A stretch of DNA of 64,000 bases from Candidatus Poribacteria bacterium (GCA_022827625.1 JAJEIE010000027.1:62001-126000); one strand, 5' to 3'; positions 2,922 to 53,753 are shown, counted from the stretch's first letter. The notes: generated by a model not told the origin, from the sequence alone. A program made the numbers and translations.

Positions 2922-3686
2922 TTACCTTTGAGATTTTAATGTTGCCCAGGTTGTGGATAATTTCCCAAGCGGATCGACCGGTGTCAGCACACCACTGTCC
3001 ATCTCAGCGAGAATTTCTGCTTCGGTGAGGGCACGGTTCCAGATGCGGACTTCGTCGATGAGTCCGAGGAATTCGCGGTTGCCTTCGTGTGTTTTCCCGA
3101 CGAGGACATCGGCGGTATCAGCCGTTCCCGGCAAAGGGTTTTGACCATCGAATTCGCCAACATTTTCACCGTTTAGCCAGTACCGATGTGTACCGTTATC
3201 TACGTGAGCGACAACATGCTGCCATTCATTGAGTGCAATTACTCCATCGCAAACACTACCGCTACCCCCGGCACTGAGGTGGAGGCATTCGCTCGGGAAT
3301 TCGGTGTAGAAGCTGTAGGAGCGTGGACCGTTGCCTTTTGCGACGATACCTTGCCACCGTTGGGCGTTAGGACCTTGATGGCGTTCGGCATTAATCCAAG
3401 CCATGACAGTGACAGCCTCATCGACAGTGAGAATATCGGCGTGTGGTACTGTGACCCAATCGCTTTCACCGTTCAGTTTAAGTGCGTTGCCGAATTTTCC
3501 AGCGACTAACTCAGGGGCACCCGCAAGCGTGCCATCGTTTCCGTACTGCGAATGATCGGAGACTGTGTCGCCGTCAAGTTCATCGAAAGAGAAATAGAGG
3601 ATAAGCGAATCATCCGACGGATCTGCAGCATAAACAAAAGATACCGCGAGTACCATAATGGCTAATGTAGACAGAAATATCTTCAT
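2922..3686 (-). CDS. Secreted LamG-domain protein with C-terminal TTWxxLK tag
   Basis: About 254 aa from the ATG at 3686, chosen because AAGGAG lies 6-7 bp upstream and it begins a clean signal peptide (MKIFLSTLAIMVLAVSFVYA). The mature protein is a single laminin-G/concanavalin-like jelly roll, from LILYFSFDELDGD to the closing motif LIDEVRIWNRALTEAEI. The last 20 residues are a separate conserved tail, PVDPLGKLSTTWATLK. The tail recurs in seven other secreted proteins of this window. LamG domains bind glycans or proteins; the ligand is unknown. It is a close paralogue of the next gene upstream (3762-4535). Confidence 0.9.
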   Translation of the reverse strand: MKIFLSTLAIMVLAVSFVYAADPSDDSLILYFSFDELDGDTVSDHSQYGNDGTLAGAPELVAGKFGNALKLNGESDWVTVPHADILTVDEAVTVMAWINAERHQGPNAQRWQGIVAKGNGPRSYSFYTEFPSECLHLSAGGSGSVCDGVIALNEWQHVVAHVDNGTHRYWLNGENVGEFDGQNPLPGTADTADVLVGKTHEGNREFLGLIDEVRIWNRALTEAEILAEMDSGVLTPVDPLGKLSTTWATLKSQR

Positions 3687-3761
3687 CTTTGCTCCTTTTT
3701 TCATGACAGAAGGTGCACGCTGAGAACCCAACCTGCGAGTCCAAAGCGCGCACGACAGGTT

Positions 3762-4535
3762 TTATCGTTCTGATGTTTTCAGATGTCCCCACGTCGTAGT
3801 GAGTTTCTGATGTGGATCAACGGCGAAGATCTCGAAGAAGCCCATATCCATCTGTTCAATGACTTCTTCTTCACTCAAGGCGCGGTTCCAGATACGGACT
3901 TCGTCGATGAGTCCGAGGAATTCGCGGTTACCTTCGTGTGTTTTTCCAACGAGGACGTTGGCGGTATCGGCTTTACCGGGCGGGGGTGGGTTTCCGGGGA
4001 AATCCCCTACATTTTCACCGTTTATCCAATACCGGTGTGTGCCATCATCGACTTGTGCGACGACGTGTTGCCACTCATCCAGTTCGACTTTTCCGTTGCA
4101 AACGGTTCCGCCGCCTCCCACACTCAGGTGGAGACATTCGCTCGGAAATTCAGTATAGAAACTATAGGAGCGGGGTCCGTTGCTTTTCGCGACGATACCT
4201 TGCCACCGCTGTGCAGCGGGACCTTGATGGCGTTCCGTGTTAATCCACGCCATAACAGTGACGCTCTCATCAACGGTCAGGATTTCGTCGTGTGGGACTT
4301 CGACCCAGTCGCTCTCACCGTTGAATTGCAATGCTTTGCCGAATTTTCCGTCAGCAAGTTTCGGATCGCCCATCATTTCGCCATCATTCTCATACAGTGA
4401 ATGGTCGATGGTGGTGTCACCGTCGACTTCATCGAATGAGAAGTAGAGGATCAGGGACTCCTCTGGCTCATTTAGCCCGTAGGCAAAAGATGCCGTAAAC
4501 GCGATGAGCGTTAGGATAATAAATAGGTTTCTCAT
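3762..4535 (-). CDS. Secreted LamG-domain protein with C-terminal TTWGxLK tag
   Basis: 257 aa. The start at 4535 follows a strong GGAGG. The signal peptide (to about residue 20, ending FAYG) is followed by one LamG fold with the same landmarks as its neighbour: LILYFSFDEVDGD, RWQGIVAKSNGPRSYSFYTE and LIDEVRIWNRALSEEE. The end is AVDPHQKLTTTWGHLK. The two proteins are so alike over most of their length that a tandem duplication is the simplest explanation. Only about 75 bp separates them, with a new Shine-Dalgarno, so they may be co-transcribed. Confidence 0.9.
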   Translation of the reverse strand: MRNLFIILTLIAFTASFAYGLNEPEESLILYFSFDEVDGDTTIDHSLYENDGEMMGDPKLADGKFGKALQFNGESDWVEVPHDEILTVDESVTVMAWINTERHQGPAAQRWQGIVAKSNGPRSYSFYTEFPSECLHLSVGGGGTVCNGKVELDEWQHVVAQVDDGTHRYWINGENVGDFPGNPPPPGKADTANVLVGKTHEGNREFLGLIDEVRIWNRALSEEEVIEQMDMGFFEIFAVDPHQKLTTTWGHLKTSER

Positions 4536-12777: not shown

Positions 12778-13575
12778 ATGAGACATTTACTGAGTTATGC
12801 GGCATGCCTCTTCCTGATGTTTGGAATCGTAAGTTATGCTATGGCAAATCTCGCTGACGACCTCGTCGTTTATTTTTCTTTTGACAATATCGAAGGTAAG
12901 CGAGTTCTTGATGAATCTGGCAACGGTCTGGATGCTGAGGTTATCAAGAATACCAAATTTGTGGAGGGCAAACATGGGAACGCTGTTCATATCACTGGTG
13001 AGACTGAAGATTGTGTGAATGTGCTCACTGCTGATAAACTGGAGCTTGACGGTGCGATTACGATGATGGCGTGGGTATATCATGAGGATTGGACAGGGCG
13101 TACTTTTCAATGGTTTGATAAGGGAAGTTATAGTGCCGAGACCAAACATGGGTACGGTATGGCGGTCTTTGATATAGAAGAGCATGGTTCTGGTATTGGA
13201 GTTATCGTAGGCGGTGCCGTCCGGACACACCTGATAACTCTGAAAAGTTTGGAAGATGAAACATGGCATCACATTGTCGGAACTTGCGAAGACAAGCGGG
13301 TCAAAATCTATCTCAACGGGGAAACCTTAACTGAGCATGAAGTCGGATTTAACTTCATTGGTACAAATGAGGAGAATTTGCGGATTGGGTGCGCTAAGGG
13401 TAAACCCGAATATGCATTTGAGGATGGTATTATTGACGAAGTCGCGATATGGAGTCGTGCGCTTGGTGAAGATGAAATCAGAACTGCGATGCAAGGTCCG
13501 CTGTTTGATGTTACACCGAAGGATAAGGTTGCTACGACGTGGGGAGATATTAAGCAGGAGGCGTTTCAGCCTTAG
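12778..13575 (+). CDS. Secreted LamG-domain protein with C-terminal TTWGDIK tag
   Basis: 265 aa. ATG follows GGAGGGAC. The signal peptide covers about residues 1-22 (ends SYAMA). One LamG jelly roll runs from LVVYFSFDNIEGK through DESGNGLDAEV, WHHIVGTCEDKRVKIYLNG and IIDEVAIWSRALGEDEI. The tail VTPKDKVATTWGDIK is the window-wide C-terminal tag. It is the first of three paralogues on this strand, and its DNA shares exact blocks of 44 and 58 nt with the next gene, showing a recent duplication or gene conversion. The glycan or protein ligand is unknown. Confidence 0.9.
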   Translation: MRHLLSYAACLFLMFGIVSYAMANLADDLVVYFSFDNIEGKRVLDESGNGLDAEVIKNTKFVEGKHGNAVHITGETEDCVNVLTADKLELDGAITMMAWVYHEDWTGRTFQWFDKGSYSAETKHGYGMAVFDIEEHGSGIGVIVGGAVRTHLITLKSLEDETWHHIVGTCEDKRVKIYLNGETLTEHEVGFNFIGTNEENLRIGCAKGKPEYAFEDGIIDEVAIWSRALGEDEIRTAMQGPLFDVTPKDKVATTWGDIKQEAFQP

Positions 13576-13597
13576 CGGAAATCTGGGTATTGCATTT

Positions 13598-13679
13598 TTC
13601 TCGATTTCGTGACACACTCCCATCACTTCCGAACAAGTTTGTGTCTTTGGTATAAAAACCTCATAAGAGGAGAGACAAA
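13598..13679 (+). promoter_or_regulatory. Duplicated leader of LamG genes, copy 1
   Basis: The 80 bp before the LamG gene at 13680 match the 75 bp before the LamG gene at 16918: TTTCGTGA-ACACTC, ATCACT, AACAAGTTTGTGTCTTT, GGTATAAAAACCTCATA and GAGGAGAGA. The region before 12778 keeps only a GGTATAA-type core. The leader was copied with the coding region, so it probably contains the promoter and ribosome site. CCTC and GAGG could pair over a 4-nt loop and mask the Shine-Dalgarno. Confidence 0.6.
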
Positions 13680-14498
13680 ATGAAACAGTTATTTGGTTAC
13701 ATTTTCCTATTCTACGCCTTGCTGTTTATAGTGACCGGATACACTCAGGCAAATCTCGCTGACGACCTCGTCGTTTATTTTTCTTTTGACACTATCAAAG
13801 GCAAGCGGATTCTTGATGAATCTGGCAACGGTCTGGATGCCGAGGTTATCGAAAATACCAAATTTGTTGAGGGGAAATACGGAAACGCTGTTCACATCAC
13901 GCGTAGGACTGAAGATTGTGTAAATGTACCCACTGCTGATAAACTGGAGATTGACGGTGCGATTACAATGATGGCGTGGGTGTATCACGAGGATTGGACA
14001 GGAAGTTCTTCCCAATGGTTTGATAAGGGAACTTATAGCAATGACTTTAATAGTAGTTACGGTATGGTGGTCTTTGGTGAAGGTCATCCTGCTGTTATTG
14101 GATGGCTTGACAAGGGTTCTGGTATTGGACTTATCTTAGGCGGTGAAAACAAGGTGCTGTTCACAATTCAGAATAGGATGAAAAATAAAACGTGGCATCA
14201 CATGGTAGCGACCTGCCAGGATAAGAGCGTCAAAATCTATCTTGATGGAAAAATCCTGATGACGAGTGCAATGCCGTTTGGCTTCACTGGTGTAAATGAC
14301 CAGGATTTGCGGATTGGGTGTGCTAAGGGTGAACCGCGGTATGCATTTGAAAATGGCTTTATTGACGAAGTCGCGATATGGAGTCGTGCGCTTGGTGAAG
14401 ATGAAATCAGAACTGCTGCACAAGGTCCGCTGTTCCCTGTTTCGCCGAAAGATAAGATCGCTACGATGTGGGGCGATATTAAACGAGACGCGTTTTAG
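13680..14498 (+). CDS. Secreted LamG-domain protein with C-terminal WGDIK tag
   Basis: 272 aa with a signal peptide ending near VTGYTQA. A single LamG domain has the same landmarks as the preceding paralogue, plus a 10-residue insertion around FGEGHPAVIGWLDKG. Conserved strands are WHHMVATCQDKSVKIYLDG and FIDEVAIWSRALGEDEI. The tail is VSPKDKIATMWGDIKRDAF, where Met replaces one Thr of the usual TTWG. AAGAGGAGAG lies just before the ATG. Very similar DNA blocks to the upstream gene point to a recent duplication. Confidence 0.9.
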   Translation: MKQLFGYIFLFYALLFIVTGYTQANLADDLVVYFSFDTIKGKRILDESGNGLDAEVIENTKFVEGKYGNAVHITRRTEDCVNVPTADKLEIDGAITMMAWVYHEDWTGSSSQWFDKGTYSNDFNSSYGMVVFGEGHPAVIGWLDKGSGIGLILGGENKVLFTIQNRMKNKTWHHMVATCQDKSVKIYLDGKILMTSAMPFGFTGVNDQDLRIGCAKGEPRYAFENGFIDEVAIWSRALGEDEIRTAAQGPLFPVSPKDKIATMWGDIKRDAF

Positions 14499-14964
14499 TA
14501 ATAGGCTTGATGTATCTTGCTTTGCACGCTTCAATTCAATGATTCAATTTGCCTTTCGTTTTTTAATGAACTCTATGATTTACGCGAGTTCAATAAAGAG
14601 GGCTTGTACCGTAAACTGTTAGTTTGCGATGCTTCTGAGGTCACTTTGCGCGTCACATACCAGAACCTAATGACCCGGATAACCAATAATTGGTGGATCA
14701 TTTCCACTGTCCTGCTAACTTCTAATCCTTGTGTTGAACGCGCGTAAGTTGTAAATTACCTTCCGATAAAATCCTTTCTATTTATTGCTAAAATCTCTGA
14801 AGAAAATTACGTCGTGTGTGTTAAACCATTTGGCAAGGGAGAACAGCTGTGTTAAAAGTCTTTCATCGTTTCCGTTGCTGCTTCATTTGCGGCGTGCATC
14901 AGATTGAGGTTTAGTTGACCGCTCCACCCTAAAATAATAAAATGGTATCAAGGGAGGTTTCTAC
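14499..14964. other. 466-bp gene-free stretch between LamG and propeller-like genes
   Basis: No coding sequence with family features was found; the short open frames look random. It holds one small palindromic repeat (14606-14631), and a good Shine-Dalgarno (AAGGGAGGT) at its right end serves the next gene. No clear promoter is seen. Confidence 0.5.
14606..14631. repeat. Small palindromic repeat, GTAAACTGTTAGTTTGC type
   Basis: GTACCGTAAACTGTTAGTTTGC matches, in reverse complement, the string at 22514-22537 (GTACCGCAAACTGTTAGTTTGC). The core GCAAACT GTT AGTTTGC is a perfect 7-bp hairpin in the second copy. Both copies are intergenic. Confidence 0.65.
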
Positions 14965-16719
14965 GTGAAATCATTGTGTTTTCTGCTAATTTTCGCCATT
15001 GCCGTTGGAAATTATGTGTCTATCGCTGAAACACCCAATGGGCTTGGCGTCCCACCGTGGCATCCCATAGGACAATACATACATCCCGCTATTCGTGAAA
15101 GTTCAGGCATCGTTGCAAGCCACCAGTTTGAGGGAGTTTATTGGACCCTCAATGACTCTGGCAACCCCGCAGCACTCTACGCAACAAAACTGAACGGCGA
15201 GTTCATTCAAGAGATCTCGATACAGGGTTCCCAAAACTTCGATTGGGAGGCACTCGGCATTGACGATAAAAACCAGCTCTGGATCGGTGAAATTGGCAAT
15301 AACAGCCGGCTACGAACAGACTTGAAGGTAGTCGTCGTTGCTGAGCCAAACCCGTTTGAGGATACAACAGCGGAGGTTATTGAAAGTTATCCGTATCGGT
15401 ACCCGAACGAAAATGTAGATGCCGAGGGGTTGTTCGTTGCCGATGGTGTTCCTTACATTGTTTCCAAGGAGCAGGCGCGCGCAGTGCTGTATCGCTTTCC
15501 AGCACTGGAAGTGGGGGCACAACAGGTTTTAGAACGCGTGGGGGAGTTCACCGGAGCGAAGTGGGTTACGGGGGCAGGATTGTCAGCCGATGGAACGCGG
15601 CTCGCCGTCTGTACCTACGACGCGCTTTGGGTCTATCTGGGTACAGTGGACAATTTCGCACAGATGATTCAGGGCGAACCGCGGCATCTCTCGCATAACT
15701 TTTTCGGAGAGGCGGTCTGCTTTGATGGCTACGATCTTGTCTTAACCAACGAAGCGCGCGATCTATACCGTCTGCCACAATTTTGGTATGAAAAAGAGTG
15801 GGAATTGCCTCCAAAAAACACACAAACAGCGGCTGCCTTATTAACAGAAGCAGATGAATTTCAGGTGGAAAGTTATCGTACGGCGGGCATTGCGATTGAT
15901 GGCGGACATGTTGCTTTGAACGTCAAAGCCCCGGGCGCAGCGCTGAACCAACGAGTTGAAACGGATTATAGAAGTCTATACGAAGTTGGTGCTATTCTGA
16001 CGCGTGGACCAGAATATGGACAGGTGGAGTTAAGCGTTAACGGCACGGTGTTAGGTTCACCGTATGATTGCTACAATCCAGAACTAATGGTTGGGACACT
16101 GGTAACATTCGGCACAACCCCGCTGAATGCCGAAAATAATCAAGTTGTGCTCAGCGTGGTCGGAAAGGCACCCGAAGCCACTGGCTACAAAATCGGCGTT
16201 GATTCCTATCAAATACGACATGTCTCACCTTATATTGACAGTTACCTTGTTCTGGGTCCATTTCCAAAGGCGGCGGGCAACACTATTGATGAACCTTCCC
16301 ATCCTGAAATTGAACTCGATCTTGAGAGAATTTTTGAGGGAATTGACGGCGAAACTATTCGTTGGCAGAAAGCAGCGACTGAACCAGACGGCTTTCTCGA
16401 TTTGAACAAAAACATCGGTGCTGGTGACATAGCCTTTGGGTATACGCTTACCCATGTCTATGCTCCGAAAGCGATGGAGTTTATGCTCTTACTCGGCAGT
16501 GACGACGTAATTACGCTCTGGTTAAACGACACAGAGATTCACCGAAATGAGGTCATTCTTCCGACCATTCCAGATCAACATGCTATTCCCTGCCAACTGA
16601 AAGCGGGGTGGAATACGGTTTTATCCAAAACGAGTCGAAATGGCGGGTACTGGGGATTCTATTTGCGATTTGCAGATGCCGATGGGGTTCTCAGGTATAG
16701 CCCTTATTCCATGAAATAA
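14965..16719 (+). CDS. Secreted propeller-like protein with C-terminal carbohydrate-binding-like domain
   Basis: 584 aa from a GTG with AAGGGAGGT upstream. The signal peptide covers about residues 1-22 (ends VSIAE). Residues 30-290 look like a beta-propeller: repeated strands such as GVYWTLNDSGNPAALYATKLNG, FDWEALGIDDKNQLWIGEIGNN and YRFPALEVGAQ. The last 150 residues include SDDVITLWLNDTEIHRNE and LKAGWNTVLSKTSRNGGYWGFYLRF, which read like the jelly-roll domain found at the ends of glycoside hydrolases. No catalytic motif is recognised. It lacks the TTWG tag of its LamG neighbours. Extracellular binding or phosphatase/esterase-like roles are possible but unproven. Confidence 0.7.
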   Translation: MKSLCFLLIFAIAVGNYVSIAETPNGLGVPPWHPIGQYIHPAIRESSGIVASHQFEGVYWTLNDSGNPAALYATKLNGEFIQEISIQGSQNFDWEALGIDDKNQLWIGEIGNNSRLRTDLKVVVVAEPNPFEDTTAEVIESYPYRYPNENVDAEGLFVADGVPYIVSKEQARAVLYRFPALEVGAQQVLERVGEFTGAKWVTGAGLSADGTRLAVCTYDALWVYLGTVDNFAQMIQGEPRHLSHNFFGEAVCFDGYDLVLTNEARDLYRLPQFWYEKEWELPPKNTQTAAALLTEADEFQVESYRTAGIAIDGGHVALNVKAPGAALNQRVETDYRSLYEVGAILTRGPEYGQVELSVNGTVLGSPYDCYNPELMVGTLVTFGTTPLNAENNQVVLSVVGKAPEATGYKIGVDSYQIRHVSPYIDSYLVLGPFPKAAGNTIDEPSHPEIELDLERIFEGIDGETIRWQKAATEPDGFLDLNKNIGAGDIAFGYTLTHVYAPKAMEFMLLLGSDDVITLWLNDTEIHRNEVILPTIPDQHAIPCQLKAGWNTVLSKTSRNGGYWGFYLRFADADGVLRYSPYSMK

Positions 16720-16735
16720 CAGATGTATCCGAAAA

Positions 16736-16760
16736 GGGCGGGGTTAGAAACCCCGCCTAC
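16736..16760. repeat. Small palindromic repeat, family A
   Basis: GGGCGGGGTTAGAAACCCCGCC followed by TAC. It sits 17 bp after the stop of the propeller-like gene, so it may also act as a 3' hairpin of that transcript, but no T-run follows. Confidence 0.7.
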
Positions 16761-16845
16761 AAGTTACTGAAATGCCTACTTATTTCTACAATTCACCATA
16801 AATGACCCTATTGATAAAGAAAATATGTTGCCTTCTTCTCAGTTT

Positions 16846-16917
16846 CGTGATACACTCTAATCACTCCAAACAAGTTTGTGTCTTTCGGTATAAAAACCTC
16901 ATAGGAGGAGAGATAGC
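16846..16917 (+). promoter_or_regulatory. Duplicated leader of LamG genes, copy 2
   Basis: Second copy of the leader described at 13598-13679, with the same order of blocks and a slightly better AGGAGGAGAG. The match covers the whole region up to the start codon. Confidence 0.6.
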
Positions 16918-17709
16918 ATGAAACAATTATTTGGTTACATCTCCCTGCTCTGCGCGTTGCTGTTTATAATGGTGGGATACGTTCAGGCAGATCTGGCGGA
17001 AGGGCTTGTTGTCTATTTCACGTTTGATAATGTGAAGGGTAAGGCGATTGTTGACGATTCCGGCAATGGGTTGGACGCCGATATCATCGCCAATACCGAA
17101 ATTGTGAAAGGTAAATACGGGGACGCGATTCGCATTACAAACGTAGGAGCGGATTGTGTTAACGTGCCAGCCTCGGATGACCTGAAAATCACGGGTGAAA
17201 TCACGATGGCGGCTTGGATCAATCAGGACTCTTGGGCCACTGACGCGCAGTGGTTCGACAAAAACTGCCATAACGGAGGTGAACATTCCTCCTACGGCAT
17301 CGGTGCTTTTAACGGCGGCGCGAATTTCAATATGTTCTTGGGAACCGGCAACAGTAGACCGACACTGAGCCAGCCGCATGCCCTGGATACGAAGACATGG
17401 CATCACGTCGTTGGAACGTACGATGGCTCAACCATGAAGGTTTATGTTGATGGAGAAGTCGCCGCGGAGAAAGACGAAAAGTTTGATTTCAAAGGCACCA
17501 ACGATCAGGACTTACGGATCGGGTGTTCTAAGGACAGACCGAATTATACGTTCGAGAACGGTTCTATCGACGAAGCGGCAGTCTGGCGGCGTGCACTCAG
17601 CGAAGGCGAAATCCAAGAGATAATGAACGAGGGGTTCCTCGCAGTGTCCCCGCTTGATAAGGCTGCAACAACGTGGGGCAATATTAAACGAACAACTGGC
17701 ACACGCTAA
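16918..17709 (+). CDS. Secreted LamG-domain protein with C-terminal TTWGNIK tag
   Basis: 263 aa, third LamG paralogue on this strand and the most diverged. The signal peptide ends near VGYVQA. LamG landmarks are LVVYFTFDNVKGK, DSGNGLDADI, WHHVVGTYDGSTMKVYVDG and SIDEAAVWRRALSEGEI. The tail reads AVSPLDKAATTWGNIK, then a few residues. It starts almost like the 13680 gene (MKQLFGYI), including the leader, so the pair shares an ancestor, with the propeller-like gene placed between them. Confidence 0.9.
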   Translation: MKQLFGYISLLCALLFIMVGYVQADLAEGLVVYFTFDNVKGKAIVDDSGNGLDADIIANTEIVKGKYGDAIRITNVGADCVNVPASDDLKITGEITMAAWINQDSWATDAQWFDKNCHNGGEHSSYGIGAFNGGANFNMFLGTGNSRPTLSQPHALDTKTWHHVVGTYDGSTMKVYVDGEVAAEKDEKFDFKGTNDQDLRIGCSKDRPNYTFENGSIDEAAVWRRALSEGEIQEIMNEGFLAVSPLDKAATTWGNIKRTTGTR

Positions 17710-26162: not shown

Positions 26163-26936
26163 ATGAAACAGATTACTTGCATAGTTGCAATACTACTTCT
26201 GTCTGTATGTCTCATCCCTGGTGTTTTTGCCCAGAACTTGATGAGCGATGAATTCCATGGGACGGGTCAAGACCTGCAGTCCTTCTGGCAGGTCAAGGAT
26301 GGGGATAAGAGTCCTTGGGAGCTGCAAGATGGATTGCTGGTTGCCGAAGCGGGTTTCGATCAAAATTTGTGGGGGGCTGACACGTCTACACGTTTCTACC
26401 AAGTTACAGATCAAGACCAGTTTGACATCGAAACGTCAATGGTTGTTGACTACGGTGATGCTTGTACTGTGGCTGGTATTGTTGTGTATTCTGCCACCAC
26501 AAAAGATAGCCAAAATCGCGATGGCGAGTGGGTGACGCTGAAGTTGTGGGGACGCGGTGCTGCACAGGACAACAACGCCGTGCTTCAGTACCAGCGTCGG
26601 GAGAATGATGCTGCGCCTTATGTCGGTGTACAACCCGACTACATGCCAGATCAAGGTGTTATTCCGCTTGAGTTGCGTATCAAACGCGATGGCGACGAGT
26701 ATGAATCGTGGTTTAAACCGAATGCGGAAGGCGATTGGGTCTCGGTGAGTACAGTGACGAACGCACTCGAAGAACCGCTTGAAGTCGGCATCTACGTCGG
26801 CATCTGCGAAGGCGAAAGTGCTGATGGTAGGATGACAGTCACTTTTGACTATTTCCGCGAGGCATCAAGCCCGGCGACACCGGTTGACCCGCGCGACAGA
26901 CTCGCTGTTACGTGGGGTGAACTCAAAGGACAGTAG
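26163..26936 (+). CDS. Secreted DUF1349/concanavalin-like protein with TTWG-type tag
   Basis: 257 aa; the signal peptide runs to about residue 23 (ends VFAQ). The fold is not LamG but a DUF1349/beta-xylosidase-C-terminal-like sandwich: DQFDIETSMVVDYGDACTVAGIVVYS, WVTLKLWGRG and EVGIYVGICEGES. The tail VDPRDRLAVTWGELK is nonetheless the same C-terminal tag as in the LamG proteins. The next gene is a paralogue. A good terminator-like hairpin follows the stop. Confidence 0.85.
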   Translation: MKQITCIVAILLLSVCLIPGVFAQNLMSDEFHGTGQDLQSFWQVKDGDKSPWELQDGLLVAEAGFDQNLWGADTSTRFYQVTDQDQFDIETSMVVDYGDACTVAGIVVYSATTKDSQNRDGEWVTLKLWGRGAAQDNNAVLQYQRRENDAAPYVGVQPDYMPDQGVIPLELRIKRDGDEYESWFKPNAEGDWVSVSTVTNALEEPLEVGIYVGICEGESADGRMTVTFDYFREASSPATPVDPRDRLAVTWGELKGQ

Positions 26937-27006: not shown

Positions 27007-27807
27007 TTGAACCAAGTAGTTATTTTATTTTTTATCAGTTTTGTGATGTTTTATAGCATCTCTGCTGCCGGAGCTGAGTCTCTCGGCGATCCTTTTGATG
27101 GAAACGCTTTGAAGAATCCGAATTGGAAATGGAAAACCTCTGATGCGGAAGGCGTTGAACCAAAAACGTGGGATCTGGGGAAAACGAAAGCCGGATGGCT
27201 TCACGTCACAGGTGAACTGAACCGTAATCTCTGGCCCTCGGACACAACGAATCGGCTTTATCAAGAACATGAAGGGGATTTTGACATAGAAACGCATCTT
27301 TACATGGACTATGGGGATGCCTGTGTTGTTGCGGGGGTCGTTGCTTACTCGCCAACAACGAAAGATCATCAAGGTCGTGAGGGCGAATGGGTGACAATTA
27401 AACTCTGGGGTCGCGGTCCCGCGAACGGCAACAATGCCGTCATCCAGTATCAGAAACGGCAGTTCGATAATGCTGAAGGGCTTGTCGGAGTCGTCCCTGG
27501 CTTCCAGGACCCCGCAGGGGAGATGGCACTCTACATGCGACTCCGGCGTGAAAAAGATACTTTTACGGCATGGTGGAAACGGAAAGCCAACGACACTTGG
27601 ATTGACATCGGCGAGACCGAACAGGAGTTTGATGAGCCGCTTGAAGTGGGTATCTACGTCGGCATCTGTGATGGTAAAGGTGAACAAATTGCCCAGTTTG
27701 AATACTTTGAGGACCTTCTTGTGCCATTTGATATTTCGCCGCGTGCAAAGCTGCCGATTGCTTGGGGAGACTTAAAACGTAGACACAATCTATCGAATAA
27801 TCGTTAA
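27007..27807 (+). CDS. Secreted DUF1349-like protein with WGDLK tag
   Basis: 266 aa from a TTG at 27007, with AAGGAG about 7 bp upstream. A longer frame from 26962 overlaps the terminator and adds a non-signal N-terminus. The signal peptide is VVILFFISFVMFYSISAAGA. Core strands match the upstream paralogue: DFDIETHLYMDYGDACVVAGVVAYS, WVTIKLWGRG and EVGIYVGICDG. The tail ISPRAKLPIAWGDLK is a diverged form of the tag, keeping W-G-x-L-K. Confidence 0.85.
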   Translation: MNQVVILFFISFVMFYSISAAGAESLGDPFDGNALKNPNWKWKTSDAEGVEPKTWDLGKTKAGWLHVTGELNRNLWPSDTTNRLYQEHEGDFDIETHLYMDYGDACVVAGVVAYSPTTKDHQGREGEWVTIKLWGRGPANGNNAVIQYQKRQFDNAEGLVGVVPGFQDPAGEMALYMRLRREKDTFTAWWKRKANDTWIDIGETEQEFDEPLEVGIYVGICDGKGEQIAQFEYFEDLLVPFDISPRAKLPIAWGDLKRRHNLSNNR

Positions 27808-42912: not shown

Positions 42913-42978
42913 AGGAGGAAATAGGGACGCATTGTTATAAGTATTGCTTGCAAGCACATACTGGACATATTGCGCTCC
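42913..42978 (+). promoter_or_regulatory. Structured leader of MORN gene 1
   Basis: AGGAGG at 42913-42918, GGGACGC at 42924-42930, a TGCTTGCAAGCA palindrome at 42945-42956 and GCGCTCC at 42972-42978. The same layout precedes the second MORN gene, where GGGACGCG (44305-44312) pairs perfectly with CGCGTCCC (44351-44358). The Shine-Dalgarno-like AGGAGG lies more than 70 nt before the start codon in both, so the fold may bring it close. Confidence 0.5.
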
Positions 42979-42989
42979 TGAATACAATT

Positions 42990-43457
42990 ATGGCAAGATC
43001 ACTGACCGATGGTGAAATGGTAGATGGAAAGAAGCACGGGTATTGGGTCACCTACTATGCGAACGGACATAAGCGGAGCGAAGGTGAATATGTGCATGGC
43101 AAAAAGGAAGGACCTTGGATCAATTACCACAAAAATGGGAACGTAGCGGGTGAAGCGACCTTCCGCGATGGAAAATACGAAGGTCTGTGTGTCACCTATC
43201 ATGAAAATGGAAATCTTAGATCCAGAGGCACTTTTCCCAAACACGTGGGTAAATCCTATGATGGCAAAAAGGAAGGCCCCTTTTACAGTTATGAAGATGA
43301 CGGCGAGACGGTGTGGTTAATCGTAACCTACAAAAAGGGAGGCAGTCGTGCGAAACCGGATGAGTACCCGTTGGGGGTCTGTGATGTTTGTGGTGAGGGA
43401 AGACGTTTAAAGTGGGGAAATATTTGTCCACGATGCGGTAATAAACTGGATGCATAA
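42990..43457 (+). CDS. MORN-repeat protein with C-terminal zinc ribbon, copy 1
   Basis: 155 aa from the ATG that starts MARSLTDGEM; an upstream TTG is possible. At least four MORN-type units, such as GKKHGYWVTYYANGHKRSEG, GKKEGPWINYHKNGN and GKYEGLCVTYHENGN. The C-terminus is a zinc ribbon, VCDVCGEGRR...CPRCGNKLDA, with two CxxC pairs. YwqK-family antitoxin-like proteins share the MORN pattern, but no toxin is seen. A twin gene lies at 44371, with a LamG gene between. Confidence 0.82.
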   Translation: MARSLTDGEMVDGKKHGYWVTYYANGHKRSEGEYVHGKKEGPWINYHKNGNVAGEATFRDGKYEGLCVTYHENGNLRSRGTFPKHVGKSYDGKKEGPFYSYEDDGETVWLIVTYKKGGSRAKPDEYPLGVCDVCGEGRRLKWGNICPRCGNKLDA

Positions 43458-43481: not shown

Positions 43482-44255
43482 ATGAGAGTCTTAATTATTT
43501 TGGCTGCTATGCTGGTTCTCTTCATTTCAGGGACGTGGGTTCAGGAAAGCACATCAGAAATTGATCCAGAATCCGTTATGGGAATCTGGAATTTTGATCA
43601 GGAAAAAGGAGGCACGGTTAAAGATACGTCTGGCAATGGGAACGATGGAAAAATTGTTGATGCCGAGCGGGTTGAAGGAAAAGAGGGCATGGGAATCGAA
43701 TTTGATGGGACCAATCACGTGGTTATTCCAGCGAGCGAAACTGTCAATGATTTCCTCGACGGATTTACGTATCTGCTCTGGGTCAAACCGCTTGGTAACC
43801 CTTCTGGTCCACACGTTCGTCTCATAGAGAGAGACTGGCACAATCCAAATATTCTCATCGGTCCAACCGATTTTTATGGTAGTTTCATCTTCAACGGCGG
43901 GATAGACAATAGTGCCGTTCGAGGTGGGGCTTGGGAGATGGATGAGTGGAGTTTTGTTGCCTTAACGCACGACGGTAAGACGCTCATCCTCTATGTTGAT
44001 GGCGAAGCCGTCGCGGATTTAGACGTTGGGGAGCCGGATTTCACCGAACAACACGACGGTGGTTCGATTTGGTTAACGCGTTGGAAAGGTGGACCGGGTT
44101 GGGATTTTAGCGGCGTTCTTGACGAAGTTGCTATTTTCAATGCTGCCCTCAGTGAAGACGATCTGAATGTTATTATGACGGAAGGACTTGAAAAAGCCCT
44201 TGCTGTTTCACCTATTGACAGATTAACAACGACTTGGGCGCATATCAAACGGTAG
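43482..44255 (+). CDS. Secreted LamG-domain protein with TTWAHIK tag
   Basis: 257 aa; signal peptide MRVLIILAAMLVLFISGTW. The LamG fold is a second subtype: VMGIWNFDQEKGGTVKDTSG, NDGKIVDAERVEGKEGMGIE, FDGTNHVVIPASE and VLDEVAIFNAALSEDDL. The tail AVSPIDRLTTTWAHIKR is the window tag. AGGGAGGC lies upstream. The gene sits between two nearly identical MORN genes, as if inserted during their duplication. Confidence 0.88.
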   Translation: MRVLIILAAMLVLFISGTWVQESTSEIDPESVMGIWNFDQEKGGTVKDTSGNGNDGKIVDAERVEGKEGMGIEFDGTNHVVIPASETVNDFLDGFTYLLWVKPLGNPSGPHVRLIERDWHNPNILIGPTDFYGSFIFNGGIDNSAVRGGAWEMDEWSFVALTHDGKTLILYVDGEAVADLDVGEPDFTEQHDGGSIWLTRWKGGPGWDFSGVLDEVAIFNAALSEDDLNVIMTEGLEKALAVSPIDRLTTTWAHIKR

Positions 44256-44304: not shown

Positions 44305-44358
44305 GGGACGCGTCATCGCCGTGTGGGTTGTACCTGCATACGTAATGGGTCGCGTCCC
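44305..44358 (+). promoter_or_regulatory. Structured leader of MORN gene 2
   Basis: Perfect 8-bp stem GGGACGCG / CGCGTCCC with a 38-nt loop; AGGAGG lies at 44294-44299 just before it. The start codon is 13 bp after the stem. It matches the leader at 42913-42978. Confidence 0.55.
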
Positions 44359-44370
44359 GCGAATTTAATT

Positions 44371-44841
44371 ATGGCAAAATCACTTACTGATGGCGAGATG
44401 CGCAACGGCAAAAAACACGGTTATTGGGTCACCTATTACGCGAATGGACATAAGCGGAGCGAAGGTCGCTACATTGAAGGAAAAAAAGAGGGGCTTTGGA
44501 TCCAGTACCACAAAAATGGAAACAAAGCGAGCGAAGCTACTTTCCGCGACGGGAAGAACGAAGGCGACTATATATGCTATTACGAGAACGGCAATCGTAA
44601 ATGGGGCGGTCCTTATCGGAAACATGATGGTGGTTCCGCTGACGGCAGAAAAGAAGGCGTCTGGCTCTGCTATGAGGAAGATGGTGAGACGGTGTGGCGT
44701 ATCATCACCTACAAGAAGGGTGGCAGTCGTGCGAAACCGGATGAATATCCGTTGGGTGTCTGTGGTGTTTGCGGTGAAGGCAGACGCTCAACGTGGAAGG
44801 ATACTTGTCCGCAGTGCGGTGCAGAGATTGGTGAATGGTGA
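44371..44841 (+). CDS. MORN-repeat protein with C-terminal zinc ribbon, copy 2
   Basis: 156 aa starting MAKSLTDGEMRNGKKHGYWV. MORN units are GKKEGLWIQYHKNGNKASE, GKNEGDYICYYENGN and GRKEGVWLCYEEDGE. The C-terminus VCGVCGEGRRS...CPQCGAEIGEW has two CxxC. The twin at 42990 has the same domain order and leader. Function unknown; protein-binding or metal-sensing is possible. Confidence 0.82.
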   Translation: MAKSLTDGEMRNGKKHGYWVTYYANGHKRSEGRYIEGKKEGLWIQYHKNGNKASEATFRDGKNEGDYICYYENGNRKWGGPYRKHDGGSADGRKEGVWLCYEEDGETVWRIITYKKGGSRAKPDEYPLGVCGVCGEGRRSTWKDTCPQCGAEIGEW

Positions 44842-46300: not shown

Positions 46301-47392
46301 ATGTCTTATCTCATCACTGACTTAAATCAGCTCACCCCCAGACACCTCACCGAGATACTTCGCAAAAACGGAGCACTTGAGCGCGGCGATGTTACACGGA
46401 TAACATACACACTGCATCCACGGACAACCGATGTCAACGTTGATGGATATATTCTGGCGCATCTCTCCATAACCTACTCTGCCGATGCGTCGCTTCAAAC
46501 CCCCAAACGCCTATTCTTTAAACTTAAAAGGGTCGTAAATAGGTGCGTCGGGAAAGAAGTCTATTTCTACAAAACAATCACTGCCAACATTAGGGATTTA
46601 CCGGTTTTACAATGCTATGACGCTGTCATAAATGACGATACTGGACACTGTCATTTGTTGCTCGAAGATGTTTCCGAAACCTACTTCACACCTCTGCCCC
46701 CAACGCAATGGCAGCCAGAATTTGATCGTTCGTCGGCAGAACAGATTATTGATGGCTATGCCAAAATCCATGCATACTATTGGAATAATGAAGAAAAATG
46801 GGAGGAACTTAGCAACGCCATCAGCGGCGAATTTTACGTGTCGGAGGCGTATATTCGCACCTACTCCAGCACGCCAGCCGAAGAACTCACTGAATTTTTT
46901 AACTACCGAAAAAATGAACTGAATACACAGCAAAAGCGATGGTTTGAACAGGCAGCCAAACGATTACCAGATTTGCTCATCGAACGACTTCGTAATCGCA
47001 AGCACCTAACGATTGGACATCAAGATGCAAACACTTGGAATATTCTGAGACCACGTAATCCTTCTGATAATGTGCGAATTATAGACTGGGAAGGGTATCA
47101 TCTCTGGTTTGGTGTAGACGACATCACGGCACCATTTGTACGCTTTCAGCCTCCTGAACTAAGGCAGGCATGGGAGATTGCCCTGCTTCAGCGTTATCAC
47201 AAACGTTTGCTTGAATACGGGGTCGAAGGTTACAATTGGGACGATTTGTGGTATGATTACAGATTATCAACGCTGTACTGGTTTTGTGGGCGAATCGGTG
47301 TACCCGATGAGACGAGGATACCAATTGCGGATTGGGTGCTTGCCAACAACTTGCGCGCATTTGAAGAATTACATTGCGAAGAACTGCTTTAG
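46301..47392 (+). CDS. Aminoglycoside/choline-kinase-like phosphotransferase
   Basis: 363 aa; AAGGAGATAAAG is well placed before the ATG. The Brenner motif IGHQDANTWNILRP (HxDxxxxN) and the metal-binding IIDWEGYHLWFG mark the APH/ecdysteroid-kinase fold. Adjacent kinase-like genes differ in fold but are in the same direction, 61 bp apart. The open frame continues upstream into the kinase gene, which is a chance overlap. Substrate unknown. Confidence 0.82.
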   Translation: MSYLITDLNQLTPRHLTEILRKNGALERGDVTRITYTLHPRTTDVNVDGYILAHLSITYSADASLQTPKRLFFKLKRVVNRCVGKEVYFYKTITANIRDLPVLQCYDAVINDDTGHCHLLLEDVSETYFTPLPPTQWQPEFDRSSAEQIIDGYAKIHAYYWNNEEKWEELSNAISGEFYVSEAYIRTYSSTPAEELTEFFNYRKNELNTQQKRWFEQAAKRLPDLLIERLRNRKHLTIGHQDANTWNILRPRNPSDNVRIIDWEGYHLWFGVDDITAPFVRFQPPELRQAWEIALLQRYHKRLLEYGVEGYNWDDLWYDYRLSTLYWFCGRIGVPDETRIPIADWVLANNLRAFEELHCEELL

Positions 47393-47411
47393 AGCAATGC
47401 GACCGAAAAAA

Positions 47412-47474
47412 TCTGATTTTTTCTCGAAAACAGGATTTAATTGGGTAAATCATTCTGAAAAGAGGGGAAGGTCA
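47412..47474 (+). promoter_or_regulatory. Conserved leader of DUF5916 genes, copy 1
   Basis: AATCTGATTTTTTCTCG and a string like AAAACAGGATTTAATTGGGT, then AAATCATTCTG, recur at 51243-51311 before the second DUF5916 gene. They stop at the third gene, whose upstream DNA is a kinase fragment. The leader probably holds shared regulation. Confidence 0.5.
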
Positions 47475-49916
47475 GTGAAAATTGAATCGAACTTTCAGAA
47501 CACCTTGGTATTTCTCGTCGTTTTTTCTCTTGTACAATTCTCAGGTGATGTAAAGGCTGAAAGTGAGGTAAAATCACCTCATAGAACTGCAACCGCAATT
47601 CGTATTAAAGGTGCACCGCCGAAATTAGATGGCACCTTGGACGACGACATCTGGAAAACCGCGCCCCGCCACGGCGACTTTCGTCAGCGTGATCCCGACG
47701 AGGGCAAACCCGCAACCGAACGCACCACATTCCAAATTGCTTACGATGACGAGGCACTCTATTTTGGGGTGATGTGCTATGACAGTGAACCCGATAAAAT
47801 CGTTTCGCGCCTCGTCCGGCGCGACGCTCAGGTCGAATCCGATAAGATCCACTTAACGCTCGATCCACATTACAATCGGCAGAGCGCTTTCTGGTTTACC
47901 GTCTATCCCTCTGGCGCGATAACAGACGGGATCATTTCCGGTAATCGTTGGTACGACAGTACGTGGGATGGTGTCTGGGAAGTGAAAACCCAGATTCACG
48001 CAAATGGCTGGGCAGTCGAATATAAAATCCCATTTCATATATTGCGCTTCTCCCCAAAGGATGCATACGTCTGGGGACTACAAGTCACCAGGGATATCAG
48101 TCGAAAAAAAGAACAGGTCCAGTGGCGTTTGATCCGAAAAAATGAACCCGGGTGGATCGCTCACTTTGGCGACCTGATCGGTATCAAAGCGATTCGTCCG
48201 CCACATCACCTTGAACTGTTGCCGTATGCCATGGGACGTACCCGTCTCAATGATGAGACTGAATTCTGGGGCAATATAGGGGCCGACGTTCAATATGGAA
48301 TTACCACCGGGACAACCCTCAATGCGACCGTCAACCCCGATTTTGGACAGGTGGAAGCAGACCCAGCGAGTCTGAATCTCTCAGCGTATGAAGAGTACTT
48401 TGAAGAACGCCGTCCGTTTTTCGTCAAAGGGGCTTCTATTTTTGGAAGTAATGACTACGGTTTCTTTTACTCCCGTCGCATCGGACGGCAGCCGAGACAT
48501 CTTCAACTTCCCGACGGTGCCACAGAACTGCGTCGTCCTGAAGCTACAACAATCCTCAGTGCCGCCAAAATTGTGGGCAAAACTCATAACACCCATTTCG
48601 GTATCATCGAGGCAGTCACTACACCCGAATACGCCCAAATTGAAAAAGATGGGAACCGCGATGAACATCTTATTGAACCCTTAACCAACTATTTTGTCGG
48701 GCGGATCAATCAGGATGTGCTGAAAGGGAATTCCAGGGTGGGTTTGATAACAACTGCTGTGAATCGACAAGCGTCCAACGGTGCGTATGTTGCGGGGCTG
48801 GATTGGGATTTGAAGTTCGCGAAGGAACAGTATCAAATCACTGGTGCCCTCGCAGCAAGTCAGACAGGAGCCCTGGATGCACGCACATCAGGATACCTCG
48901 CACACCTCGAATTTGATAAACATGGCGGTTGGTGGAGCGGCGAGAGCCACTTTAAAATGATTTCACCCGACTTTGAAATGAACGACCTCGGCTTCCAAAG
49001 GCGCGCGAACCTGCTGGGGTGGGAGTACGCCCTCTCGGCGCAAAAGGAACAGCCGTTTAGCATCTTCCGACGCGCTTTTTTCGGACTTTATGGCTGGCAA
49101 AACTGGAATTATGACAGAGTGAATATCAGTCGCTATTTGGCACTTTATACGAATACACGTTTCAAGAATTATTGGGACGCTAACGTATGGGTTGAACACA
49201 ACTTAGAGTCGTTTAATGATGATGATGTCAGACGCGGTGGCACACTCATTAAGAATCCTGCAAACTGGCGCGTTTATACACGGCTTTCTACGGACAGTCG
49301 GAAAATGATTCGGTTGGATTTGCATCCGACCTTCGGTTGGAACGCGGATGGGGAGTCTTATGACTACAATGTACGGCTCTACTTCCGTGTTCGCCCTGCG
49401 CCCAACATTGAGTTTAGCGTTGGACCCAGTTATGGCTATCGAATGCAAAACGCACAGTGGGTGGACCAAGTTGAAGAAAACATCAACGGACAGATCCAAA
49501 AGCACTACGTCTATGGGGAACTGGAAAGCCGCACCCTGGACTTCACGACGCGCGCGAACATTAGTTTCACGCCAACCCTGAGTCTCCAATTCTACGTGCA
49601 ACCCTTCATTGCGATTGGAGATTACATAAACTTCAAAGCGTTGATCAAACCGAAGTCGTATCAGTTTGAACTGTATCCGTTGAATGAGAACCGGGATTTC
49701 CATCGGCGGTCTTTGAGAGGCAACACCGTCCTCCGCTGGGAGTTCCGACCGGGCAGCACACTGTTTCTCGTGTGGACGCAATCCCGGGAAGCCGCGTTGG
49801 AAGAAGTTGGCGTAGCAGATTTGGAATTCCGCCCGATACATCGGTTGAGGAGTAGTTTCACGGACGAAGGGAAAAACATCTTCCTGATAAAATGCCGATA
49901 TTGGTTTGGAATGTGA
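47475..49916 (+). CDS. DUF5916 outer-membrane beta-barrel protein, copy 1
   Basis: 813 aa from a GTG preceded by GGGGAAGG; a longer frame has no signal peptide. Signal peptide LVFLVVFSLVQFSGDVKA. Residues about 35-225 are a CBM9-like domain (PKLDGTLDDDIWKTAP, DDEALYFGVMCYDSEP). The rest is a membrane barrel with many alternating strands, ending in FLIKCRYWFGM, where the final aromatic residue fits outer-membrane insertion. DUF5916 proteins accompany sugar or polymer uptake in several phyla. It is one of three paralogues. Confidence 0.88.
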   Translation: MKIESNFQNTLVFLVVFSLVQFSGDVKAESEVKSPHRTATAIRIKGAPPKLDGTLDDDIWKTAPRHGDFRQRDPDEGKPATERTTFQIAYDDEALYFGVMCYDSEPDKIVSRLVRRDAQVESDKIHLTLDPHYNRQSAFWFTVYPSGAITDGIISGNRWYDSTWDGVWEVKTQIHANGWAVEYKIPFHILRFSPKDAYVWGLQVTRDISRKKEQVQWRLIRKNEPGWIAHFGDLIGIKAIRPPHHLELLPYAMGRTRLNDETEFWGNIGADVQYGITTGTTLNATVNPDFGQVEADPASLNLSAYEEYFEERRPFFVKGASIFGSNDYGFFYSRRIGRQPRHLQLPDGATELRRPEATTILSAAKIVGKTHNTHFGIIEAVTTPEYAQIEKDGNRDEHLIEPLTNYFVGRINQDVLKGNSRVGLITTAVNRQASNGAYVAGLDWDLKFAKEQYQITGALAASQTGALDARTSGYLAHLEFDKHGGWWSGESHFKMISPDFEMNDLGFQRRANLLGWEYALSAQKEQPFSIFRRAFFGLYGWQNWNYDRVNISRYLALYTNTRFKNYWDANVWVEHNLESFNDDDVRRGGTLIKNPANWRVYTRLSTDSRKMIRLDLHPTFGWNADGESYDYNVRLYFRVRPAPNIEFSVGPSYGYRMQNAQWVDQVEENINGQIQKHYVYGELESRTLDFTTRANISFTPTLSLQFYVQPFIAIGDYINFKALIKPKSYQFELYPLNENRDFHRRSLRGNTVLRWEFRPGSTLFLVWTQSREAALEEVGVADLEFRPIHRLRSSFTDEGKNIFLIKCRYWFGM

Positions 49917-51311: not shown

Positions 51312-53753
51312 TTGAAAATTAAAACGGGCTTTTGGCGCGTTTGGGGAGTATTCATGGTGGTTTTAGCACCACTATCTCTAAGCGCGGCTCAAGAAAAAGG
51401 AAAAATAGAATCGGCACACAGAACCGCAACAGCTGTCCGAATCAACAGCGCGCCGCCACAGTTAGACGGGGTTTTGGACGATGCTATCTGGAAAACCGCA
51501 CCCCTCCATGAAGGGTTCACACAACAAGACCCCGATGAAGGTAAACCCTCGACAGAACGCACAACGTTCCAGATCGTTTATGATGACGAGGCAATCTACT
51601 TTGCTGTGATGTGCTATGATAAAGAACCCGAAAAGATTTTCTCTCGCTTGGTTCGGCGCGACGATTATGTTACATCCGACAGAATTGATGTAATTCTCGA
51701 CCCGCATTACAGTCGGCAAAATGCATTCTGGTTTACCGTCTATCCTTCAGGCTCCGTAACAGATGGGACTATTTCTGGCGGCGGCTGGTGGGATAGTACG
51801 TGGAATGGTGTGTGGGAAGTCAAAACAAAAATACACAAGAACGGCTGGGCAGCAGAATATAAAATTCCCTATCACGTCCTACGCTTTGCGCCAAAAGAAA
51901 AATATACCTGGGGACTTCAAGTCGCACGGAGTGTTAGCAGAAAAAAAGAATATACCCTTTGGCGTTTTATAAAGAAAGACGAACCGGGTTGGGTGTCTCG
52001 TTTCGGTGATCTAACAGGTATTGAGAATATCCATCCGCCGCACCACTTAGAATTAATCCCCTACACTATGGGCAGAACAACGCTGAATAGTAAAACCGAT
52101 TTATGGGGAAATGTTGGCGGCGATATCCAGTATGGAATTACCTCCGGAATAACGCTCAACGCTACAGTCAATCCAGATTTTGGACAAGTGGAGGCGGACC
52201 CAGCGAGCTTAAATCTCTCTGCTTATGAGGAGTTTTTTGAGGAACGGCGTCCCTTCTTTGTAGAGGGTGCCTCCATCTTTGGCGGCAACGACTATAATTT
52301 CTTTTACTCCCGACGCATCGGACGAAGCCCCAATCATTTTGACATCCCAGACGGTGCTGAAGAACTCAGCCGACCGGAGGCGACAACAATTCTCGGTGCC
52401 GTCAAAATTGTCGGCAGAACCCAAAGCAAGACCTCCTTCGGTATTATGGAAGCCGTTACGTCTCCAGAGTACGCACAGATCGAAGAAGCAGGTAAAAGCG
52501 ACAAGTTCCTTGTTGAACCTCTGACGAACTATTTCGTTGGCAGAATCAAGCAGGATGTATTGAGCAATTCATACATCGGATTGATAGGAACAGCCGTCAA
52601 TCGCCGCGCTTCTAATGCCGCGTACGTGGGCGGGCTGGATTGGGATTTGAGGTTCGCGAAGGAACGGTACCAGATAAGCGGCACCCTCGCAGCCAGCCAA
52701 GCGGGAAAACTTGATGCTCGTAAATCGGGCTACCTTGCTCACATTGAGTTTGACAAACACGGTGGATGGATGCAATTGGATACCGATTTCAGAGTGCTTT
52801 CGCCTGACTTGGAAATCAACGATTTGGGCTACCGGCGGCGCGCTGATATGGTAGAGTGGAATTACGACTTCACAGTGCGAAAACAGAAGCCCTTTAGTAT
52901 CTTCCGACGCGTCATTTTCGGACTCTACGGCTGGCGAACATGGAATTATGACAGGGTCAGTATCAGCCGTTACTCCGAAATATGGACAGATGGCCGTCTG
53001 AAAAACTATTGGGACTATGACCTTTGGATCGGTCGCAACTTAGAGTCGTTTAGTGATGATGACACAATGCGCGGCGGGACGCTAATTAAGAGTCCACCCG
53101 GTTGGTGGGTCTTCACACGGCTCTCCACCGATAGCCGTAAAATGATTCAACTGCGGTTGAATCCTGTTTTCGCATGGAATGACGATAGGCGTTCGTATGA
53201 CTACGATCTGAGACTCCGGTTACGCATTCGTCTTGCATCCAATATTGAGGTGAGCTTCGGTCCCTCGTATAATTATGGAGTGCAGGATGCACAATGGGTG
53301 GATCTGGTGGAAGAAAACATTGATGGACACATCGAAAAACATTACGTCTATGGTGAACTGGAGCGCCGCACCTTGGATTTCACAACGCGCGCGAACATCA
53401 GTTTTACGCCCACGCTGAGTCTCCAATTCTACGTGCAACCCTTTGTTACTATTGGCGACTATGCCAACTTCAAAGAGTTAGTGGAGCCGAAGTCCTATCA
53501 GTTCAAACTGTATGCGTTGAACGAGAATCGGGATTTCCACCTGCGTTCGTTACGAGGGAACACGGTTTTGCGGTGGGAATTCCGTCCGGGCAGCACGCTA
53601 TTTCTCGTCTGGACACAATCCAGAGAAGTTGAGTTGGAGCAGCTTCGCACAGCAGATCTCGAATTCCGTCCATTACACCGATTGCGTAGCAGTTTCACGG
53701 ATGAAGGGAAGAATGTCTTCCTGATGAAATGTCGGTATTGGTTCGGGGTGTAA
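51312..53753 (+). CDS. DUF5916 outer-membrane beta-barrel protein, copy 2
   Basis: 813 aa from a TTG. Signal peptide VFMVVLAPLSLSAAQ. The CBM9-like domain shows PQLDGVLDDAIWKTAP and DDEAIYFAVMCYDKEP. The barrel has SAYEEFFEERRPFFVEGASI and ends in FLMKCRYWFGV. It is very similar to copy 1 over the whole length, with diverged mid-barrel loops. The gene follows the ABC permease by 84 bp with the same leader as copy 1. Confidence 0.88.
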   Translation: MKIKTGFWRVWGVFMVVLAPLSLSAAQEKGKIESAHRTATAVRINSAPPQLDGVLDDAIWKTAPLHEGFTQQDPDEGKPSTERTTFQIVYDDEAIYFAVMCYDKEPEKIFSRLVRRDDYVTSDRIDVILDPHYSRQNAFWFTVYPSGSVTDGTISGGGWWDSTWNGVWEVKTKIHKNGWAAEYKIPYHVLRFAPKEKYTWGLQVARSVSRKKEYTLWRFIKKDEPGWVSRFGDLTGIENIHPPHHLELIPYTMGRTTLNSKTDLWGNVGGDIQYGITSGITLNATVNPDFGQVEADPASLNLSAYEEFFEERRPFFVEGASIFGGNDYNFFYSRRIGRSPNHFDIPDGAEELSRPEATTILGAVKIVGRTQSKTSFGIMEAVTSPEYAQIEEAGKSDKFLVEPLTNYFVGRIKQDVLSNSYIGLIGTAVNRRASNAAYVGGLDWDLRFAKERYQISGTLAASQAGKLDARKSGYLAHIEFDKHGGWMQLDTDFRVLSPDLEINDLGYRRRADMVEWNYDFTVRKQKPFSIFRRVIFGLYGWRTWNYDRVSISRYSEIWTDGRLKNYWDYDLWIGRNLESFSDDDTMRGGTLIKSPPGWWVFTRLSTDSRKMIQLRLNPVFAWNDDRRSYDYDLRLRLRIRLASNIEVSFGPSYNYGVQDAQWVDLVEENIDGHIEKHYVYGELERRTLDFTTRANISFTPTLSLQFYVQPFVTIGDYANFKELVEPKSYQFKLYALNENRDFHLRSLRGNTVLRWEFRPGSTLFLVWTQSREVELEQLRTADLEFRPLHRLRSSFTDEGKNVFLMKCRYWFGV

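Follow-up and report, generated by a model that had tools for sequence, protein, structure and literature searches.

A 64,000-nucleotide stretch from the genome of a Candidatus Poribacteria bacterium (GCA_022827625.1 JAJEIE010000027.1:62001-126000; hereafter, the window) encodes eight secreted proteins that share a C-terminal peptide of about 19 residues, the tag, which we regard with high confidence as a signal, maintained by selection, for the targeting or binding of exported proteins. A role in C-terminal sorting is well supported, and we infer, with more confidence than doubt, that the tag is a compact C-terminal signal of a route resembling the type IX secretion system (T9SS), where it would be read by PorV-family barrels.

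The tag and its carriers

An earlier note on this DNA had described eight secreted proteins with a common C-terminal tail, and all eight tails were found in place at the genes it named. On the minus strand, the tags VDPLGKLSTTWATLKSQR (2925..2978) and VDPHQKLTTTWGHLKTSER (3765..3821) close genes 2922-3731 and 3762-4535, each of which encodes a Sec signal and a LamG domain; the true start of the former gene is probably an internal MKIFLSTLAIM. On the plus strand, the gene at 12778 encodes a secreted LamG body (12778..13509; PF13385, E=7e-20) followed by VTPKDKVATTWGDIKQEAFQP (13510..13572). Also on the plus strand, VSPKDKIATMWGDIKRDAF (14439..14495) ends gene 13680-14498 (Sec signal and LamG), VSPLDKAATTWGNIKRTTGTR (17644..17706) ends gene 16918-17709 (LamG core), and VSPIDRLTTTWAHIKR (44205..44252) ends gene 43482-44255 (Sec signal and LamG). 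The other two plus-strand tags, VDPRDRLAVTWGELKGQ (26883..26933) and ISPRAKLPIAWGDLKRRHNLSNNR (27733..27804), belong to gene 26163-26936, which encodes a probable ConA-like sandwich that is not LamG_3, and to gene 26962/27007-27807 of the same family. Six-frame translation of the window yielded eight matches to W[AG]x[LIV]K, all of them the tagged C-termini and all ending 1-9 residues ahead of the stop; mononucleotide-shuffled windows averaged 1.85 matches and never exceeded 6, counted at any place and in any frame.

The host genome comprises 5.02 Mb in 41 contigs, and the window lies in it at C30:62001-126000. Its GroEL places the organism in Candidatus Poribacteria, at 83-92% identity to relatives in five Poribacteria MAGs, with the window's own record set aside. 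A tag profile built from the eight window tails, and thus trained on one genome, matched at least 150 places in it (copy numbers per genome are lower bounds throughout). Gene-level reading of ~1.5 Mb fetched around tag matches, together with the window (~1.6 Mb in all), identified at least 156 distinct open reading frames (ORFs) that end in the tag and a single internal occurrence, in agreement with the expectation of the earlier note that matches would lie almost only at C-termini. The consensus derived from 156 ORFs, V[ED][PA]xGKL[TA]TTW[GA]x[LI]K, is followed by 1-12 mostly polar residues; it bears out the shared tail that the note had described and replaces its exact pattern, PxDKxxTTWGxIK. 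The tryptophan and the final lysine are essentially invariant (all but one of the 156 ORFs), an invariance that is partly built in, as the counting pattern requires both residues, while a lysine five positions before the tryptophan occurs in 86% of tags and a leucine four positions before it in 81%.

Nearly all carriers have Sec signal peptides, as had been predicted. A strongly hydrophobic, Sec-like N-terminal stretch, mostly followed by a small-x-Ala site, was called in 149 of the 156 by a home-made hydrophobicity scan rather than SignalP, and the remaining seven are mostly truncated or mis-started. Within 464 kb of contig sequence chosen regardless of the tag, all 12 tagged genes encode secreted proteins (one after start correction), and the tag was found in none of the 235 genes without a signal, the earlier note having named cytoplasmic carriers as an observation that would speak against a signal; it was likewise found in none of 12 lipoprotein-like genes and in none of 40 membrane proteins. 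Since a further 74 genes of this sequence were scored as secreted by the same crude scan and lack the tag, it does not mark secreted proteins in general.

Pfam assignments of 148 carriers were led by LamG_3 (74), PD40 propellers (15), and the 3-keto-disaccharide hydrolase fold (8), with Kelch (6-7), CBM9 (4), LTD (2), and CBM4_9 (2) also represented. The proposal that the body of the protein varies while the tail stays therefore holds elsewhere in the genome, where unrelated folds are tagged, but probably not for the two window proteins 26163 and 27007, which may both still be expected to be ConA-like sandwiches; the former has a GH43_C2 match (E=6e-4) that falls short of the curated cut-off. 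Among LamG ORFs sampled, 71 of 72 are tagged and none of the 72 has a T9SS C-terminal domain (CTD), and the 72nd carries a frame shift just before a recognisable tag. In this gene (L105:3767-4699, plus strand) the tag can be read in a different frame, at C25:90223-90282, and the frame shift represents a sequencing error or a recent pseudogene.

Conservation is concentrated in the tag, with column identity among 40 LamG proteins of 65% in the tag versus 38% in the LamG core. At fourfold-degenerate third positions, paralogous tails were 30.6% identical, versus 26.7% expected under free codon choice; synonymous codons are thus nearly random, indicating that selection acts on the peptide and not on a DNA cassette. 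AlphaFold2 predicted a confident LamG core for the 16918 protein (most 10-residue blocks at 83-97), followed by a flexible linker and a detached tail (~60-65) with a short, low-confidence helix, and the 26163 protein showed the same layout at lower confidence. An amphipathic alpha pattern was seen in two of three test tag peptides.

The T9SS position, distribution, and secretion genes

In the host genome, all six proteins of an LTD family (~950 residues) carry a fibronectin-like domain (LPVxLxSF...ELNNAGFNILRS...) followed by the tag. A 326-residue, tag-free query from this family recovered relatives with up to 45% identity in Marinimicrobia, Ignavibacteria, Chloroherpeton, and Bacteroidota, and in the homologues outside Poribacteria a T9SS type-A CTD follows the shared domain in 13 of 13 proteins with a readable C-terminus. 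The tag therefore occupies the position of the CTD. The only internal tag in the ~1.6 Mb lies in an FG-GAP/ASPIC-UnbV protein (L034:1231-3075, minus strand), where a TIGR04183 CTD begins within a few residues after the tag. With this tandem protein excepted, neither the eight proteins of the window nor the other tagged proteins scanned gave a CTD match to the NCBIfam models.

The tag profile was positive in each of the 85 Poribacteria genomes, which span 22 genera and 10 families, with 20 to at least 106 copies per genome, and the tag is C-terminal also in the most distant Poribacteria families read. A single search covered 47 named genomes: the five Poribacteria were all positive, with at least 102-150 copies each, and none of the 42 genomes of other phyla, including Bacteroidota, Ignavibacteria, Marinimicrobia, Verrucomicrobia, and Desulfobacterota, contained the tag. 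It was also absent from 149 Marinimicrobiota genomes. Within the phyla searched, the tag is apparently restricted to Poribacteria. Recognised tags were fewer in one poribacterial family (f3, which includes genome G017), at 20-63 in seven of the eight genomes listed versus ~100 in most others, possibly because the tag has drifted or disappeared in this family.

Genes related to T9SS components are found across the same 85 genomes. The PorV family (NF033709) was above cut-off in all 85, with 8-24 copies and E-values down to 1e-69, an expansion that could mean separate shuttles for several classes of cargo. SprA_N was detected in 79 genomes, once each and in one ORF of ~2200 amino acids, and exceeded the curated cut-off in 30; C25 peptidases (PF01364, putatively of the PorU type) were detected in 84, usually in 2-3 copies. 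Both were absent from 14 control genomes. The T9SS type-A CTD (TIGR04183) occurs in all 85 genomes, with 9 to at least 59 matches each, and three SprA-like proteins match the T9SS outer-membrane translocon model TIGR04189 (E=1e-42 to 9e-54). Kamke et al. (2014) reported TIGR04183 domains in Poribacteria, did not find Por structural genes, and left the export route open (PMC3909097); the SprA-, PorV-, and C25-type genes suggest an answer to their question. Our literature search found no described poribacterial T9SS and no described poribacterial tail, in keeping with the statement of the earlier note that it knew of no described signal with this pattern.

The SprA/Sov-like translocon gene of the host genome lies on the minus strand at L264:10473-17243 (C31:116472-123242 of the genome), with tagged LamG genes directly upstream of it (C31, ~123.7 and 125.4 kb); a tagged LamG gene is also found near SprA in genome G080. 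Tagged genes were present in the SprA neighbourhood of two close genomes and absent from that of three distant ones. Of five PorV-like ORFs in the 20-kb stretches sampled, two lie within 2 kb of a tagged gene, an adjacency that is no evidence of a link because these stretches were picked around tagged genes.

Possible functions of the tag

Because the tag stands where related phyla carry a T9SS signal, it probably serves as a compact label that addresses proteins to the cell surface. We propose that a Sec signal peptide would bring the tagged protein into the periplasm, where PorV and SprA might recognise the tag, and that the protein would then reach the cell surface and be cleaved or anchored. 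In small extracellular proteins rich in beta structure, the tag would thereby do the work of the T9SS CTD in a shorter form, with large proteins retaining the classical type-A CTD. Published work on T9SS signals describes a signal that consists of the last 22 residues of HBP35 and tolerates C-terminal extensions (PMC11285876), functional CTDs of 40-51 residues (PMC11969387), and shuttle proteins specialised by signal class (PMC12618676).

Several observations weigh against the T9SS assignment. Known T9SS signals fold into beta domains and span some 40 residues or more, in contrast to a tag of ~19 residues with a predicted short, low-confidence helix, and no motif is common to the tag and the T9SS CTD. 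The SprA-like proteins score 145-182 bits against TIGR04189, whose curated cut-off is 200, and the GldM/PorM motor model TIGR03517 had no match above cut-off in any of the 85 genomes, so that the T9SS machine would be incomplete or diverged. Adjacency of tagged genes to PorV or SprA is at most suggestive, and phylogenetic profiling cannot prove a link between the tag and SprA because both are universal in the phylum.

We therefore weighed other explanations. It is possible, if doubtful, that the tag serves sorting or anchoring by a system known only from Poribacteria, with a receptor or transpeptidase unrelated to T9SS; we are just as tentative about the form this would take, in which a 19-residue tryptophan-lysine peptide is recognised and more than 100 LamG, propeller, and CBM proteins coat the cell. 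The main rival, which seems rather unlikely to us, is a peptide for docking to the surface or matrix, independent of T9SS, on proteins that cross the outer membrane by another route. Its amphipathic L-x3-W-x2-[LI]-K helix would bind a receptor or polymer conserved on the poribacterial surface, which would make the tag part of a new retention system. Docking is consistent with a short linear motif that is predicted to be helical and detached, shows the amphipathic pattern in two of the three test peptides, and is unlike the CTD motifs; most carriers have small adhesive or carbohydrate-binding folds, and the Bacteroidota model finds no T9SS motor. However, docking leaves unexplained both the exact CTD position of the tag in the LTD family and the phylum-wide occurrence of SprA-, PorV-, and C25-type genes.

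The tag might instead be mainly a processing signal, with a transpeptidase or protease cutting in or near it, the new C-terminus being joined to a surface glycan and export recognition residing elsewhere in the protein. The near-universal C25 peptidases, the flexible linker ahead of the tag, and the invariant tryptophan and lysine, which suggest specific recognition, all fit this explanation. PorU joins the C-terminus of its cargo to lipopolysaccharide after cutting ahead of the large CTD; in the tagged proteins, by contrast, the best-conserved block lies at the extreme end, with only 1-12 residues after it. Classical sortases (PF04203) were found in none of the 85 genomes by a search that was positive in three control genomes, and a signal for a classical sortase was rejected on this basis. 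We consider a role mainly in processing improbable.

There is very little to recommend the view that the tail has no independent function and either belongs to the LamG fold or was left behind by a recent gene duplication. LamG paralogues make up about half of the carriers, but PD40, Kelch, CBM, and LTD/fibronectin-like proteins have the tail as well. It shows stronger conservation than the protein body, falls beyond the predicted core of the LamG domain, and is kept in the deepest Poribacteria families. Restriction to LamG, another observation that the earlier note had named as adverse, was accordingly not what we found, and the idea that the tail is part of that fold was rejected; a recent-duplication relic or DNA cassette was rejected because synonymous sites are near saturation. 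Cargo-loading peptides of internal compartments are typically amphipathic C-terminal helices, but loading into an encapsulin or microcompartment is scarcely credible, given that every carrier in the unselected 464 kb has a Sec signal.

Comparison with known signals and neighbouring genes

By its position, its carriers, and the genes that accompany it, the tag appears to resemble the T9SS CTD. Type-A CTDs (TIGR04183/PF18962, FlgD_ig-like) are likewise C-terminal on Sec-exported proteins of many folds, are present in many copies per genome, and accompany SprA-, PorV-, and C25-type genes in the genome; in the LTD/fibronectin-like family the tag takes their place, and in a single protein it adjoins one. 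The differences are that the tag spans ~19 rather than ~70-80 residues, has no Ig fold and no NPFNP or GxYxY motifs, and was found here only in Poribacteria. The short T9SS CTDs of Prevotella intermedia are, like the tag, shortened C-terminal signals, with the same predicted PorV binding as long ones, but they comprise 40-51 residues in three beta strands with motifs B, D, and E, none of which the tag has (PMC11969387). Type-B CTDs with PorP/SprF shuttles provide a precedent for a second signal class with its own shuttle, although, in contrast to the tag, they fold into domains and carry five motifs (PMC12618676).

PEP-CTERM/exosortase, LPXTG/sortase, GlyGly-CTERM/rhombosortase, and MYXO-CTERM signals share with the tag a short C-terminal region found on many unrelated exported proteins of one lineage. 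These signals combine a motif, a transmembrane helix, and a basic cluster (PMC3237569), whereas the tag has no hydrophobic run or membrane-length helix and only 1-12 residues after the motif. Lacking both the CTD fold and this tripartite design, the tag is a member of neither group. The earlier suggestion of a sorting, anchoring, or processing signal is supported, with sorting as the function that the sequence comparisons point to; of the two likenesses drawn there, that to Por (T9SS) signals appears to be strengthened by the phylum-wide T9SS-type genes and the exchange of tag and CTD, and that to PEP-CTERM is not supported, for want of a membrane helix and of PF04203.

The tag would define an exported surface proteome, of at least 156 proteins in one genome, in an uncultured phylum of major sponge symbionts, and most of the carriers are likely host-facing, with carbohydrate- or protein-binding folds. 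It would allow surface proteins in sponge metagenomes to be annotated by a simple rule and offer a minimal handle on how PorV barrels read their cargo. If the T9SS assignment is correct, the tag would be, to our knowledge, the shortest T9SS-type signal. With SprA-, PorV-, and C25-type genes present throughout the phylum, the export route that Kamke et al. left open becomes testable.

Elsewhere in the window, the tagged gene 43482 is flanked by near-duplicate genes for MORN-type repeat proteins (42948-43457 and 44323-44841, plus strand). Three related secreted proteins of ~813-912 amino acids are encoded within 10 kb on the plus strand (47178-49916, 51312-53753, and 54655-57111); their C-termini are near-identical (RLRSSF.D.GKN.FL.KCRYWF), and they are probably outer-membrane barrels.

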